From a virus: a stretch of 37,743 nt of DNA. The notes beneath the pieces were generated by a model. That model was not told the origin of the DNA and did not search any database. It saw nothing but the letters and a program-made list of their open reading frames with translations. Both the position numbers and the translations under genes were made by a program. The stretch covers positions 1 through 37,743 of the IMG/VR virus record IMGVR_UViG_3300025379_000028; one strand, 5' to 3'. Numbering within the stretch: the stretch's first letter is position 1; every line of letters starts with the position of its first letter. This document shows, piece by piece, positions 29,977-33,215 of the stretch.

Positions 29977-31080
29977 TTAGGCGTTAAGATTTGCTGGTGC
30001 AACCTCACGGAATGGATCCGGTGCGATTGAAGCGAAGTCTGGTCCCTTGAAGAACAACTCAGAGGCAAGTCGGTTGAGCTCCATCCTGAATGCTACGTTC
30101 TCGTCAGAGACACTGTGAGTAGCAACGTTTGTGATCTTATTAAAGAGATCGTAAGCATTAACGTTCGAGTTAGCCGTTGACTGCCAACGAGTACCCTTCG
30201 ATTTATTAAGATCAATACCGACCTCTTTATACCGTGAACGAATCTCGTGATCAGAGAAAGCAGTTACTGCTAGCTCCTTATCATACTTCATCGTAATACT
30301 ACGAGCAGCATTGAATTCTCTAAGGGAGGCATTGTTATCCCTAAGGCGATTAGCACTTGACGTAATCTCCTGACGAAGAGCGTCACCAGTTAGGAACTTA
30401 CGAACCTGAGTATCGAAGGTCTTCTGACTGAAGTCAGCACTATCGATGAAACGCTGGGCCATACGATGAACAGCGGTCATTCCATTGGAGCAAACCAAAC
30501 GGAGGAGATAGGGATAGAACTGAGACTTGTTGAGAGAGAAGTTCATTCCAAAACCACCCTTCCACATATCATGACCATCTCCGAATACGTCAATATCAGA
30601 ATCAGGGTTCTTGAAGTTAATTCCAATACTAATGTTAGTAGGATCAAAGTTAAAGTCACGAAGTTCGAGATTATTCTCGTTGTCCTTCAAGAAGGCCTCT
30701 GTATAACGGAGACCAGCTGAGAGGTCAATCTGACGCTCTTCCTTGATAGGGCGATCGAAGAGATTAACAATCTCATTGTTGTGGTTATTAACAATCGCGG
30801 TTACACGCTTGTTCTTCTTAATGTTCGTAAGAGCATTATGGAGAGGAGCCCACTGAGAGCTGTCATCCTTAATCTCGTTAACGAGCTGATCCTTAACTCC
30901 AAGAACTCCAAGGAGACTCTTAAGAGATGTACTGGATAGGCGGTTGTTATTGTAAGAGAAGTTATTTCCGTTCTTCTCGATGGACTCAATATCCAGAGGA
31001 GCGAGGGTATAACCTTGCAGCGTCTGGCGAATATCGTTGCTCTTGGCGACGAACTTGTCTAGTGTGTTTGTTGTGCTCAT
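29977..31080 (-). CDS. DUF932-like phage protein, 367 aa
   Basis: Starts MSTTNTLDKFVAKSNDIRQT. A conserved-looking block YLLRLVCSNGMTAVHRMAQR (residues ~195-214) resembles the CxNGM centre of DUF932 phage/plasmid proteins. The family function is unclear. Codon use is richer in G and C at third positions than in the neighbours, a feature shared with 35816-36724 and 37167-37361 and suggestive of high expression. The promoter is sigma70-like (TTGAAT-17-TATTAT) and ends 9 bases before the ATG. A GGGG stretch is the only possible ribosome site, so the message is nearly leaderless. Confidence 0.55.
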   Translation of the reverse strand: MSTTNTLDKFVAKSNDIRQTLQGYTLAPLDIESIEKNGNNFSYNNNRLSSTSLKSLLGVLGVKDQLVNEIKDDSSQWAPLHNALTNIKKNKRVTAIVNNHNNEIVNLFDRPIKEERQIDLSAGLRYTEAFLKDNENNLELRDFNFDPTNISIGINFKNPDSDIDVFGDGHDMWKGGFGMNFSLNKSQFYPYLLRLVCSNGMTAVHRMAQRFIDSADFSQKTFDTQVRKFLTGDALRQEITSSANRLRDNNASLREFNAARSITMKYDKELAVTAFSDHEIRSRYKEVGIDLNKSKGTRWQSTANSNVNAYDLFNKITNVATHSVSDENVAFRMELNRLASELFFKGPDFASIAPDPFREVAPANLNA

Positions 31081-31089
31081 TACCCCTTT

Positions 31090-31118
31090 ATAATATGGGC
31101 ACTCGAAAAGGAATTCAA
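31090..31118 (-). promoter_or_regulatory. Sigma70-like promoter of the DUF932-like gene
   Basis: Minus strand TTGAAT (31113-31118), 17-bp spacer, TATTAT (31090-31095). The spacer shares TCCTTTT and CCCA with the promoter region at 36731-36758. Confidence 0.6.
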
Positions 31119-31121
31119 GAA

Positions 31122-31250
31122 TTATTTTTTGATTCCCTTAAAATACTTTGCAAGTAAAGTTACCAACTTAGTAGAATACATTATAGCATAAGCTGTTATA
31201 AAACCTAAAGTAAATAAACCCACCATAGCAGCTTCCAGTGGATCGAGCAT
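31122..31250 (-). CDS. Small membrane protein, 42 aa
   Basis: Short frame: MLDPLEAAMVGLFTLGFITA, then YAIMYSTKLVTLLAKYFKGI and KK. One hydrophobic segment (residues ~9-25), amphipathic basic tail. ATTAAATA lies 5 nt before the ATG. Unknown function. Confidence 0.45.
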   Translation of the reverse strand: MLDPLEAAMVGLFTLGFITAYAIMYSTKLVTLLAKYFKGIKK

Positions 31251-31278
31251 ATAATTATTTAATCATTCTAGAACACAG

Positions 31279-31311
31279 AAAACCCCTACTACCTGATCAG
31301 GGTAATAGGGG
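31279..31311 (-). terminator. Strong rho-independent terminator of the large ncRNA
   Basis: 11-bp stem CCCCTATTACC/GGTAGTAGGGG (one U-G pair) with a 7-nt loop, then TTTTCTGT on the minus strand. Confidence 0.85.
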
Positions 31312-31793
31312 CAGACTGCAGTCTATGTTTTCATTCTCTCTGCGTTTCGTAGGAGAGGCCATCTCCTATCGCTCGGACTTGAGACCGACATCATGGTAGC
31401 ATTATATGAAAATTTGTGGTGTTTGAAAAGCTTTTGTTCCGGATTTTGTTCTCTCCTCATCGAGTGCCGGCATGGAGCCAGCTCGTCGACCAGTCTGTGT
31501 TTATTAAAGCAAGGGATCGTAGCTGTATGTAAGTTTTTGGCTCCTCCTATGAAAATACGTCTACTAACATACCAACAGACAACTCAACGTATCTCTCCCA
31601 CGGATTATACCTACAACGTGGGAACTTAATTTGTATGACTAGAAAACCTCATTCGCTTTCACGGAGATTTATCTTATAGGCTACACGTTCACTCGGCCGA
31701 ATGCTTCGCTATCACCTATCGCGGGAGTCTTTTAGCTTTTAAGACTTGCGCCTAGTCAAATTTCAAAATGTACTATCAAAGATCAATTCTTAT
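31279..31793 (-). ncRNA. Large structured noncoding RNA (~515 nt), family not identified
   Basis: An independent unit with its own sigma70-like promoter (31800-31828) and strong terminator (31279-31311) but no credible ORF. Minus-strand pairings that I can see: GACTAG with CTAGTC closing a 5' domain, AGTCTT/AAGACT, ATAGG/CCTAT around ATTCGGCCGAGT, CCCACG/CGTGGG, ATACGT/ACGTAT, GGAGCC/GGCTCC, AGGAGA/TCTCCT, and the palindrome AGACTGCAGTCT at 31313-31324. GCGATAGG-GAT occurs near both ends (31707-31722, 31358-31372). No tmRNA, RNase P, SRP or group I intron signatures were found. Size, ornateness and a place among phage tRNAs recall the ROOL and GOLLD classes, but I cannot show membership. Confidence 0.7.
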
Positions 31794-31799
31794 TCTTTT

Positions 31800-31828
31800 A
31801 ATATAATGCCTGAATAAGGAAGTGGCAA
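31800..31828 (-). promoter_or_regulatory. Sigma70-like promoter of the large ncRNA
   Basis: Minus strand TTGCCA (31823-31828), 17-bp spacer, TATATT (31800-31805). Expected start near 31793. Confidence 0.6.
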
Positions 31829-31837
31829 CTAAAAAAT

Positions 31838-31909
31838 TGGCAGAGGTGGGAATCGAACCCACTGCCTTCACGTTATGAGCGTGACGAGATACCAGTTCTC
31901 TACTCTGCG
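31838..31909 (-). tRNA. Initiator tRNA-fMet (CAU)
   Basis: Cloverleaf starting CGCAGAG-TA-GAG, anticodon stem TCACG/CGTGA with loop CTCATAA giving CAU, variable AGGCA, T-arm GTGGG/CCCAC, 3' CTCTGCC-A. The 1-72 position is an unpaired C1-C72, the hallmark that lets the formyltransferase act and bars elongation factor. The sequence follows bacterial fMet closely (GGTAxCTCGTC, GCTCATAAC, GAAGG). The three G-C pairs below the anticodon loop are not complete. CCA is not encoded. Confidence 0.88.
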
Positions 31910-31914
31910 GAAAT

Positions 31915-32050
31915 TAATGTAAGTTCCTTTGTCCTAAAAACCTCAAGCGTCCTTGATTATGTTCTAGTTTTGTATGAACTTACGAAGAACCGGTTCCATG
32001 CATACAACTCTTCGAACAGTTGTAGAGAGGGTTTTGCCGATTACTATAAT
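31915..32050 (-). other. Structured intergenic segment between tRNA-Trp and tRNA-fMet
   Basis: No ORF. The minus strand has an 8-bp stem GTAAGTTC (31976-31983)/GAACTTAC (31919-31926) enclosing the hairpin TCAAG-GACG-CTTGA (31943-31956), and a separate hairpin ACAACT/AGTTGT (32004-32023). A CATAAATA word at 32053-32060 precedes it. It may be a small RNA or a processing scaffold of the tRNA transcript. Confidence 0.4.
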
Positions 32051-32058
32051 TCTATTTA

Positions 32059-32133
32059 TGGCACGCCGGGTAGGAATCGAACCTACCTAAGGCAGTTTTG
32101 GAGACTGCTGCACAGCCAATGTACCACCGACGT
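32059..32133 (-). tRNA. tRNA-Trp (CCA)
   Basis: Acceptor ACGTCGG/CCGGCGT, anticodon stem GCAGT/ACTGC with loop CTCCAAA giving CCA, G73, CCA end encoded. Confidence 0.95.
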
Positions 32134-32273: not shown

Positions 32274-32636
32274 CTATTTCTGAAAATGATCTTCTTTTAA
32301 TTTAGCGTTCCAAATTTTAGCATCTTCTACAGAATTTGGATTTATGTTTTTATAATCACCTAAATGACCAACAAGAATATGACAGATAATACCATAACTT
32401 GCACTTTCACAAAGAGTAATAAAGTTACTTGGATCGAGTTCTAATTCCGGATGTAAATGAAATGGTTTAATATGATGTACATTAAGTTTTTCTGTACCTT
32501 CACAAATTGCACATTTTGGATTATTCTTAAGATGTTCCTTGCGTACAGCAGCCCATTTAGGAGATCGTTTCACTCCTGTTGCTGGAAATTTACCATGTGC
32601 TATATCGCGAGCTGCGCTTAAACGTGTAGAAGCCAT
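32274..32636 (-). CDS. HNH endonuclease, 120 aa
   Basis: Basic N terminus (GVKRSPKWAAVRKEHLKNNP) followed by an HNH zinc module: Cys42/Cys45 (CAIC), His54-His55 (LNVHHIKPFHLHPELELDPS), Asn71 (NFITLC), and Cys76/Cys85 as a second pair. This matches a short phage HNH family. It sits between tRNA-Thr and tRNA-Ala, again a homing enzyme in a tRNA cluster. It would nick or cut DNA; the target is unknown. The promoter-like TTAAATAT lies 4-5 bases before the ATG. Confidence 0.88.
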   Translation of the reverse strand: MASTRLSAARDIAHGKFPATGVKRSPKWAAVRKEHLKNNPKCAICEGTEKLNVHHIKPFHLHPELELDPSNFITLCESASYGIICHILVGHLGDYKNINPNSVEDAKIWNAKLKEDHFQK

Positions 32637-32742: not shown

Positions 32743-33193
32743 TGGTGGAGGCGAGGGGAGTCGAACCCCTGTGTTTATACTTTTCTATTTATACTTCTAC
32801 ACGCTTAGCTAGCTTTCGTACTTTGGTTGACTAAAGGTAACCAGGCACTAGCGACCTATCCATGTTTAGAGTCCTACCTGTATGTGTGATTAACGACCAC
32901 ATACCACCGCTTGCACTCAATTTTCTAAGAATCACAAGACCTTCTAAACCTATTTTTATTTCCAAAAGCTTTAATAGGATTATCTTTTGGTTCCTTAGGC
33001 AGCTAGGAGTGCTGGCTCTTCAAAGCTGGCGAGGATTTCGTCAGCGTTCTCGAGACAATACAATGCTTCCGCAAGGATAGCGTCAGAGTTATCTTCTGCA
33101 TTTATGTTTTTAATCAGCTTTTTAAAGTGGCCAACTGATTAACCACTACGTGCCATACAAACTTCGAGTATAAGTCGAAACCAGTACGCCCCC
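32743..33193 (-). ncRNA. ssrA: tmRNA with a 34-codon tag
   Basis: tRNA-like ends pair as GGGGGCG (5', 33193) with CGCCTCC (3'), including G3-U70 for alanine charging, A73 and encoded CCA. T-arm GGGGTTCGACTCCCC and the typical CTAAGCGTGTAGAAG before it are present. An H-type pseudoknot precedes the message part: GTGG (33143-33146)/CCAC (33127-33130) and TTAATCAG (33135-33142)/CTGATTAA (33110-33117). The resume codon is GCA at 33097-33099. The RNA would rescue stalled ribosomes with host or phage SmpB. One-piece, 451 nt, about 90 nt longer than the E. coli RNA, largely because of the tag. Confidence 0.95.
32995..33099 (-). CDS. tmRNA proteolysis tag reading frame (34 residues)
   Basis: Resume codon GCA at 33099, ten bases after the pseudoknot, then 34 codons to TAA at 32995-32997. 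The tag begins AEDNSDAILAEALY and ends SFEEPALLAA. The C terminus keeps the LAA degron that ClpXP recognises in ordinary tags of 8-15 residues. The internal part is acidic, helix-prone and has one Cys. Confidence 0.85.
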   Translation of the reverse strand, partial: AEDNSDAILAEALYCLENADEILASFEEPALLAA

Positions 33194-33215
33194 AAAATTA
33201 TTTATCAAAGAACAA

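Follow-up and report, generated by a model that had tools for sequence, protein, structure and literature searches.

The tRNA cluster of bacteriophage T4 holds two small stable RNAs of no known function, rnaC and rnaD (species 1 and 2 RNA). For the particles formed by much larger phage RNAs, candidate roles in print include enclosing phage tRNAs and binding ribosomes.

GOLLD RNAs form an oligomeric cage. GOLLD (RF02032) is a large structured RNA of phage tRNA islands, with tRNA-Met nearby and sometimes a tRNA inside; its 3' part is conserved, its 5' part is variable, and a loop palindrome switches between homologues (PMC12286853). ROOL (RF03087) is also an RNA of phage tRNA islands, and is oligomeric with kissing loops (PMC12286853). 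This 2025 cryo-EM paper used the palindrome-switch argument for OLE L9.3 and GOLLD L21a. In phage K, tRNA-Met is followed by the long noncoding RNA lnc001 and then by a terminator (PMC9241854), and phage ICP1 has an abundant large noncoding RNA (PMC7567579). The theta ribozymes of gut phages are self-cleaving, HDV-like ribozymes tied to phage tRNAs, with a proposed role in trimming tRNA trailers (PMC10879173).

The DNA analyzed here (the window) is an IMG/VR virus record of 37,743 bases. The unit under study lies on the minus strand, in the intergenic region between tRNA-Met (31838-31909) and a gene for a 367-aa protein (29977-31080). Its best reading is a new RNA family that works like the ornate oligomeric RNAs.

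Organization of the locus

An initial annotation, which gave no strand, had described a structured RNA near tRNAs, unassigned and equipped with a promoter and a terminator of its own. Relatives and covariation bear out this description, and the RNA lies on the minus strand. The 515 nt are indeed structured, but in place of one uniform fold they comprise a leader, module A, a core, a twister and a terminator. The 3' twister, the boxA-like leader and the modular build (the latter visible only in relatives) had been overlooked. The features are:

31823-31828, minus strand: -35 hexamer TTGCCA; promoter region conserved in relatives
31800-31805, minus strand: -10 hexamer TATATT, from a sequence scan
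31774-31786, minus strand: boxA-like element TTGATCTTTGATA, within a conserved leader (31796-31770), from TTGNTCTTTGATA matches
31636-31759, minus strand: exchangeable 5' module A, closed by TTGACTAG/CTAGTCA; seven distinct copies aligned
31690-31703, minus strand: hairpin of module A whose loop is the palindrome CGGCCG (GUGCAC in three of seven copies), from the module A alignment
31418-31625, minus strand: core D, the family-defining part (model R1), from alignment A4 (14 sequences), pair counts and a covariance model
31575-31580, minus strand: 5' strand of the pseudoknot, GUCUGU, with partner ACAGAC at 31498-31493 (helix 3)
31425-31456, minus strand: core 3' hairpin (31456-31451 with 31430-31425), loop palindrome between A-rich flanks (helix 8)
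31438-31443, minus strand: palindromic loop hexamer UCCGGA, proposed kissing-loop dimer contact, from 16 sequences
31328-31412, minus strand: type-P1 twister ribozyme with predicted cleavage at U31404/A31403, from RF03160 and covariation among 21 distinct copies
31313-31324, minus strand: palindromic hairpin AGACUGCAGUCU (GAGUUCGAACUC in several relatives), from sequence comparison
31279-31312, minus strand: intrinsic terminator with loop CUGAUCA, from a scan and relatives

The promoter TTGCCA-17-TATATT is present on the minus strand where it had been placed, with agreement at 10 of 12 consensus positions, and a transcript would start near 31793. The terminator (31312-31282) also stands, with 12 pairs and a 7-nt loop instead of the 11 bp first given. 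Across 1.2 kb, the scan found 6 promoter-like sites where 2.7 were expected and 2 terminator-like sites where the expectation was 0.7. The scan is weak alone; both signals are credible because they are conserved in relatives.

The absence of a sense ORF over about 500 nt holds: no minus-strand ORF of at least 50 aa lies within the interval, and the longest in 31793-31332 has 23 aa. The longest antisense ORF has 78 aa, and 31 of 500 mononucleotide shuffles contain one at least as long; in a comparison of lengths among 13 relatives, the longest ranges from 27 to 83 aa. Antisense coding is rejected on both grounds: the length is within the shuffle range and it varies among relatives. The single-sequence fold (-140.2 kcal/mol, z = -2.33) is moderately more stable than shuffled sequences, none of 100 being as stable.

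The palindromes GGCC and AGACTGCAGTCT are present as described. So is the repeated word GCGATAGG..GAT, but its repetition looks incidental because the first copy takes part in the TAGG/CCTA pairing of module A and the second lies in P5 of the twister. In module A, TAGG pairs with CCTA, and L039 has CAAG with CTTG instead; the sequence of P5 differs in the 20 other twisters compared.

An HNH gene (32274-32636) lies near the RNA, and the 367-aa gene has no PHROG or Pfam match. By eye, a small hydrophobic ORF (MLDPLEAAMVGLFTLGFITAYA...) lies 3' of the RNA at about 31120-31250 on the minus strand, and a similar stretch is seen near the distant homologue L249. The spacer between tRNA-Trp and tRNA-Met (about 31913-32055, minus strand) recurs, also by eye, in L023, L172, L173 and L182, and is probably structured.

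Relatives and their phages

A homologue search with covariation analysis had been proposed as a check; relatives were found, and the core covaries strongly. Viral scans with DNA patterns, nhmmer and a covariance model located the core in 25 IMG/VR contigs besides the window, so far in uncultured phages only. Contigs L002, L003, L004 and L013 match the window base for base across 571 nt. In whole-record searches of 15 phage records, each of the 11 matching records carried a single core copy.

Because a T4-type gp23 capsid gene is present in 5 of 10 records searched, and gp23 of one record is ~36% identical to its best cultured matches, the carriers seem to be uncultured phages of the T4-like kind. 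No single host is indicated by ribonucleotide reductase or by the gp23 of one record. Several records are presumably lake-derived, to judge by IMG project numbers.

A bacterial genome scan gave 117 hits, of which nhmmer supports only L062 (15.5 bits), a sequence that the covariance model scores at 9.8 bits (E 0.97). The hits L026, L038, L179, L180 and L183 were taken as chance pattern hits. Searched against a phage collection, the RNAs of the window and L175 had no match, that of L006 had one 30-base match (E 0.5), and that of L177 had, among the best 20 of 232 matches, only tRNA-like stretches. The core model had no match in nine whole cultured phage genomes, and among the open-access papers listed on phage twisters, phage self-cleaving ribozymes and phage noncoding RNAs, no title or abstract opening describes such an RNA. 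The RNA is new to the libraries searched.

A search with the 367-aa protein yielded 13 loci, and the RNA lies upstream of the gene in 12; in the exception, L012, the locus starts within the gene. This arrangement would suit a cis-acting leader that controls the downstream gene (29977-31080) by twister cleavage or attenuation. Fetching loci through the gene biases that count, and the gene also follows the RNA in L019 and L029, which were not fetched in this way. It was not found, however, in the 0.8 to 8 kb downstream flanks of L015, L032, L039, L048, L051, L175, L177 and L249. In the window a strong terminator separates RNA and gene, and the covariation lies in the core, far off. Control of the gene in cis is considered unlikely.

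A conserved core with a pseudoknot

The core was analyzed in alignment A4, which contains 14 distinct cores including that of the window. It leaves out identical contigs, L023 (whose contig ends within the core) and L029/L181 (a core split over two loci), and its gaps are misplaced in H2 and in the 3' hairpin for L008, L014 and L015. L175 and L249 were set aside as test sequences.

Across the 208 nt of the core, a 45-pair structure that includes the pseudoknot is paired in 96.3% of 630 cells. Slid partners pair in 35.8 to 53.8% of cells, a comparison that favours the core structure because this was partly derived from the same sequences. Double changes occur in 19 of the 45 pairs (72 cells). 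The covariation score is 0.407 vs 0.211 for shuffled alignments, none of 500 scoring as high; a measure of further pair types is not above shuffles (297/500). Helices differ in what they contribute: H1 and H2 are fully paired in 14/14 sequences, with the best complement taken within a short range; the pseudoknot helix 3 is paired in 97.6% of cells, with double changes in three of six pairs; helix 7 is invariant, and helices 4 and 5 consist mostly of invariant pairs. Helix 8 is paired in 81% of cells, with L014 and others out of register in A4.

Out of sample, the core model scores L175 at 37.3 bits (E 8e-9) and L249 at 47.2 bits (E 3e-12). By eye, the pseudoknot of L249 is also complementary, GCUGAU with AUUAGC. 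Taken together, these comparisons support a core fold, pseudoknot included, that is real and conserved, and the compensatory changes point to selection on the fold.

A palindromic loop as a candidate dimer contact

The loop of helix 8 is palindromic in 16 of 16 sequences, in which the hexamer is UCCGGA, ACUAGU, UCUAGA or UGCGCA. Its central pairs are Watson-Crick in 48/48 cases, compared with 0 to 16 of 48 when the center is slid, and double changes are seen at all three nested pairs. L175, with a 5' flank one base longer, was registered by its own palindrome; the count without it is 45/45. When single loops are shuffled, the observed degree of palindromy arises in 0.5 to 0.7% of cases for the window, L008 and L177, and in 7% for L175. 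L249 carries UGCGCA at the same center; it came to light after the dimer contact had been proposed, through a model in which the loop is unpaired.

Since adjacent loop bases cannot pair within one strand, the palindrome suggests pairing between two copies. An intramolecular partner was also sought: in 9 of 15 RNAs, no second copy of the palindrome occurs in the stretches given. The second copies in the remaining 6 lie in the twister (L005, L006, L007, L019) or in module C (L008, L015); they do not track the loop changes, and were rejected as partners. The comparisons thus support the core loop as a homodimer contact. The RNA seems able to pair with its own copies, and is probably multimeric. 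For the loop of module A, with palindrome shuffle frequencies of 0.05 and 0.26, a dimer contact is suggestive only, strong statistics being confined to the core loop.

Palindromes can serve as protein-binding sites, and the core palindrome could be read as a DNA site for a dimeric protein instead of an RNA contact. It sits, however, in an RNA hairpin loop between A-rich flanks, and its sequence changes while its symmetry is kept. A DNA site is considered highly unlikely, and an RNA contact between copies is the reading carried forward.

A divergent twister at the 3' end

Within the window, the RF03160 match covers 31408-31332 and scores 25.8 bits (E 0.005), short of the gathering score of 67.2. 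The twisters of L016 and L018 score 32.4 bits and that of a third relative 28.5; in a set of nine sources, five matched with 23.6 to 30.2 bits. Every twister scored falls below gathering (listed range 23.6-32.4 bits). The other four of the nine, L048, L051, L174 and L175, hold the twister pattern but gave no Rfam match to it at E values up to 2.

A twister depends on helices P1, P2 and P4 and on pseudoknots T1 and T2 (PMC5408937). In the window, P1 has seven pairs after one mismatch, P2 is UGC/GCA and P4 is UCG/CGA. T1 pairs CUC (31383-31381) with GAG (31338-31336), where the consensus is CCC:GGG, and T2 pairs AC (31397-31396) with GU (31378-31377), where it is GC:GC. By eye, both are compensatory changes from the Rfam consensus, whose printed structure leaves T1 and T2 unpaired. 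Both the scans and the analysis script selected for the T1 and T2 words, so that the uniformity of these words across the 21 copies is not evidence.

P1 and P4 vary in sequence among these 21 distinct copies with pairing mostly kept. P4 is paired at 3/3 positions in 19 copies and at 2/3 in L010 and L172, through the variants UCG/CGA, CCG/CGG, CUG/CAG, CAG/CUG, CAU/GUG, CAC/GUG, CCU/AGG, GCG/CGU and ACC/GGU. P1 has internal mismatches in several copies, and a one-base slip is needed in L010, L051 and L172. These observations support a divergent type-P1 twister, with which the RNA could apparently remove its own 3' tail.

Of the 14 aligned copies, 13 have the twister directly 3' of the core, the exception being L032. 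In L175 it lies ~50 nt past the core, after a promoter-like stretch, and the 3.2-kb locus of L249 has no twister. Because L032 and L249 have a core without an adjoining twister, cleavage would not be indispensable. Similar twisters behind promoter-like sequences precede other blocks in L032, L036, L174, L175 and L176 (by eye).

Two further, unassigned blocks were seen by eye after the twister. One, CCCUGUGC..GCCGAAU..GCAGGGAC with variants, replaces the terminator of the window in L177 (1177-1420), L178, L051, L174 and L036; its sole Rfam matches, in L177 and L178, are to tRNA-Sec and below threshold. The other, GACUCG..GUGAG..ACGU followed by a terminator-like hairpin, is found in L011, L015, L048, L175 and L176, and has no Rfam match in L048, L175 and L176.

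A putative boxA-type leader

The word TTGNTCTTTGATA matches twice in the window, with 0.01 matches expected: in the leader of the RNA and upstream of a phage tmRNA (32743-33193, minus strand) that Rfam detects and ARAGORN did not report. The second copy, TTGTTCTTTGATA (33203-33215, minus strand), ends 9 nt 5' of the tmRNA. The corresponding gap measures 10 nt in L007 and 9 nt in L008; in L019 the word lies 17 nt before a tmRNA match just below cut-off. Behind the second copy of L030 there is no Rfam tmRNA at gathering level.

The exact word stands 5' of the RNA in 11 of 16 core sequences, and near versions occur in L008 (GATCTTTGACAG) and L177 (GATCTTTAACAG). It is absent there in L032 and L249, and none was seen by eye in L175. 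A boxA-like word also lies 5' of 16S in 4 of 5 bacterial genomes with a 16S match: TGATCTTTAACA in the Undibacterium rRNA leader, TGCTCTTTGACA in Microvirga, TGCTCTTTAACA in Cedecea and CGTTCTTTGAAT in Hymenobacter. In Streptomyces, the search word used found none upstream of 16S. The leader word is therefore supported as a putative boxA-type site. NusB/NusE bind the boxA of rRNA and are proposed to block Rho-dependent termination, and the main role of Nus factors on rRNA has also been argued to be maturation, not antitermination (PMC4807359). Either role would suit a long untranslated RNA.

Usual tmRNA tags have about 10 aa; the tmRNA of the window has a long predicted tag, AEDNSDAILAEALYCLENADEILASFEEPALLAA, of 34 aa at 33099-32998. 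At L019 (3301-3917, minus strand), a tmRNA match of 45.5 bits (cut-off 47) overlaps a group I intron match of 77.7 bits at its 3' end, and this phage tmRNA is perhaps interrupted by an intron.

Exchangeable modules and tRNA-Met

The slot between leader and core holds module A in the window and other content elsewhere: module B, module A or B with an insert C, another kind of block (L048), or just a tRNA-Met (L014). Similar helices, TTTGAC..GTCA and TTTGATTACTG..CAGTAATCA, close the modules. On this comparison, phages have swapped 5' modules among themselves. A tRNA-Met lies within the unit, between the leader and the module or core, in L010/L011, L014, L048/L053, L171/L178 and L177 (its identity in L171, L177 and L178 was read by eye). 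L171/L178 carry a boxA variant, tRNA-Met and module A joined straight to the twister, with no core.

These tRNA-bearing units, the coreless L171/L178 included, would be compatible with a unit mainly for tRNA processing, with the twister trimming a tRNA precursor, as theta ribozymes are proposed to trim the 3' trailers of phage tRNAs (PMC10879173), and the remainder serving as spacer. In the window, however, tRNA-Met lies upstream of the promoter and the unit holds no tRNA; where tRNA and core co-occur, the twister is hundreds of nucleotides from the tRNA; and the core covaries far beyond the needs of a spacer. A primary role in tRNA processing is improbable.

The reshuffling of modules A, B and C, the twister and other blocks between phages, together with group I intron matches nearby, could also reflect mobile RNA cassettes that gather in tRNA islands, the whole RNA having no function of its own. 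Against this, the core occurs once per record (11/11 matching records), and its compensatory changes show a fold under selection. Cassettes without a joint function are quite improbable, and a functional RNA with interchangeable parts is preferred.

Proposed mechanism

Compared across its members, the RNA family is demonstrably conserved, structured and modular, with a divergent twister. For transcription start, cleavage, particle and function, we infer the following course. Host RNA polymerase would start at about 31793 on the minus strand. The boxA-like element, in the first 20 nt, may recruit Nus factors, keeping polymerase on the untranslated RNA as at rRNA operons; these factors may also aid folding. 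The 5' module and core would then fold, the core being held by its long-range pseudoknot, as covariation suggests. The twister, recognized by structure and covariation, is predicted to cut at U31404/A31403. Cleavage would free an RNA of ~390 nt with a defined 3' end (a 2',3'-cyclic phosphate) and leave the terminator behind. The freed RNA may pair with further copies through palindromic hairpin loops, at least the covarying 3' loop of the core, and homodimers or higher oligomers would form. Its job is taken to be of the ROOL/GOLLD type: a stable RNA particle during infection.

This reading, in which large structured phage RNAs of modular build make up a new family, Nus-assisted, twister-cut and self-pairing into a ROOL/GOLLD-like particle, is given a probability of about 0.62. 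A bolder proposal would make the RNA a self-processing, self-assembling chassis: a 5' end with antitermination of the rRNA type, exchangeable slots (module A, B, C or tRNA-Met), a dimerizing core and a twister-freed 3' end, with symmetric particles displaying or enclosing varied RNA cargo, tRNA included. It is put forward tentatively and seems rather unlikely as stated.

With its ribozyme at the 3' end, its leader resembling that of rRNA and its naturally swapped domains, the family provides clean handles on the function of large oligomeric phage RNAs. Symmetric loop covariation would make oligomerization predictable from sequence.

Comparison with known RNA systems

Rfam was searched in gathering mode on the window and in permissive mode on 31081-32060. 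In the stretch it returned the flanking tRNA, the sub-threshold twister (the closest) and three further sub-threshold matches, to MESTIT1, tpke11 and Plastid-ycf2, which are taken as chance. The initial annotation had excluded tmRNA, RNase P, SRP, 6S and group I intron, rightly as it appears from the absence of an Rfam match in the stretch. It had also named ROOL, GOLLD, OLE and HEARO as the families to check, and none matched there. HEARO and OLE were rejected accordingly. RNase P-like words (GGCTCCA, GAGGAAAG) were dropped, as their order is wrong and Rfam has no match, and tmRNA identity was rejected: RF00023 has no match in the stretch, and the phage tmRNA lies elsewhere (32743-33193).

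GOLLD (RF02032, cut-off 150 bits) has no match in 31081-32060 at E up to 10 and none above cut-off in nine phage records, its best score, 7.5 bits in one record, lying away from the RNA; five controls matched, none above cut-off. ROOL (RF03087, cut-off 99.1 bits) has no match in 31081-32060 or the nine records, and no control matched either. Because no control exceeded its cut-off, absence of GOLLD and ROOL is not proven. The RNA could be a GOLLD or ROOL so divergent that the Rfam models fail to catch it: common to both are the phage tRNA island, tRNA-Met beside or inside the unit, a conserved 3' and variable 5' part, and symmetric kissing loops. Weighed against the missing matches, even with such weak controls, this reading is very unlikely. 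Of the two options first raised, membership in the ROOL/GOLLD type is not supported, with neither the RNA nor the controls above cut-off, and a new class is most likely.

Among shorter or partly similar systems, T4 rnaC and rnaD are much shorter, and T4 has no core-model match. To our knowledge, theta ribozymes have no large core. Phage K and ICP1 resemble this locus in having a large noncoding RNA, but neither whole genome has a core-model match under stricter filters. At the 3' end of phage K lnc001 (L201, 633-769, minus strand), Rfam gives DUF3800-I at 43.4 bits, just under the cut-off of 44.2.

The ribozyme shares with type-P1 twisters (RF03160) helices P1, P2 and P4, optional P3/P5, T1, T2 and the conserved loop; it differs in its low scores, in the compensatory changes of T1 and T2, and in sitting 3' in a large RNA. 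GOLLD differs from the present RNA, which has a core of ~208 nt and a twister at its end; ROOL is of similar length, and its model is silent here as in the controls. If the present reading is confirmed, such RNAs arose more than once in phage tRNA islands.
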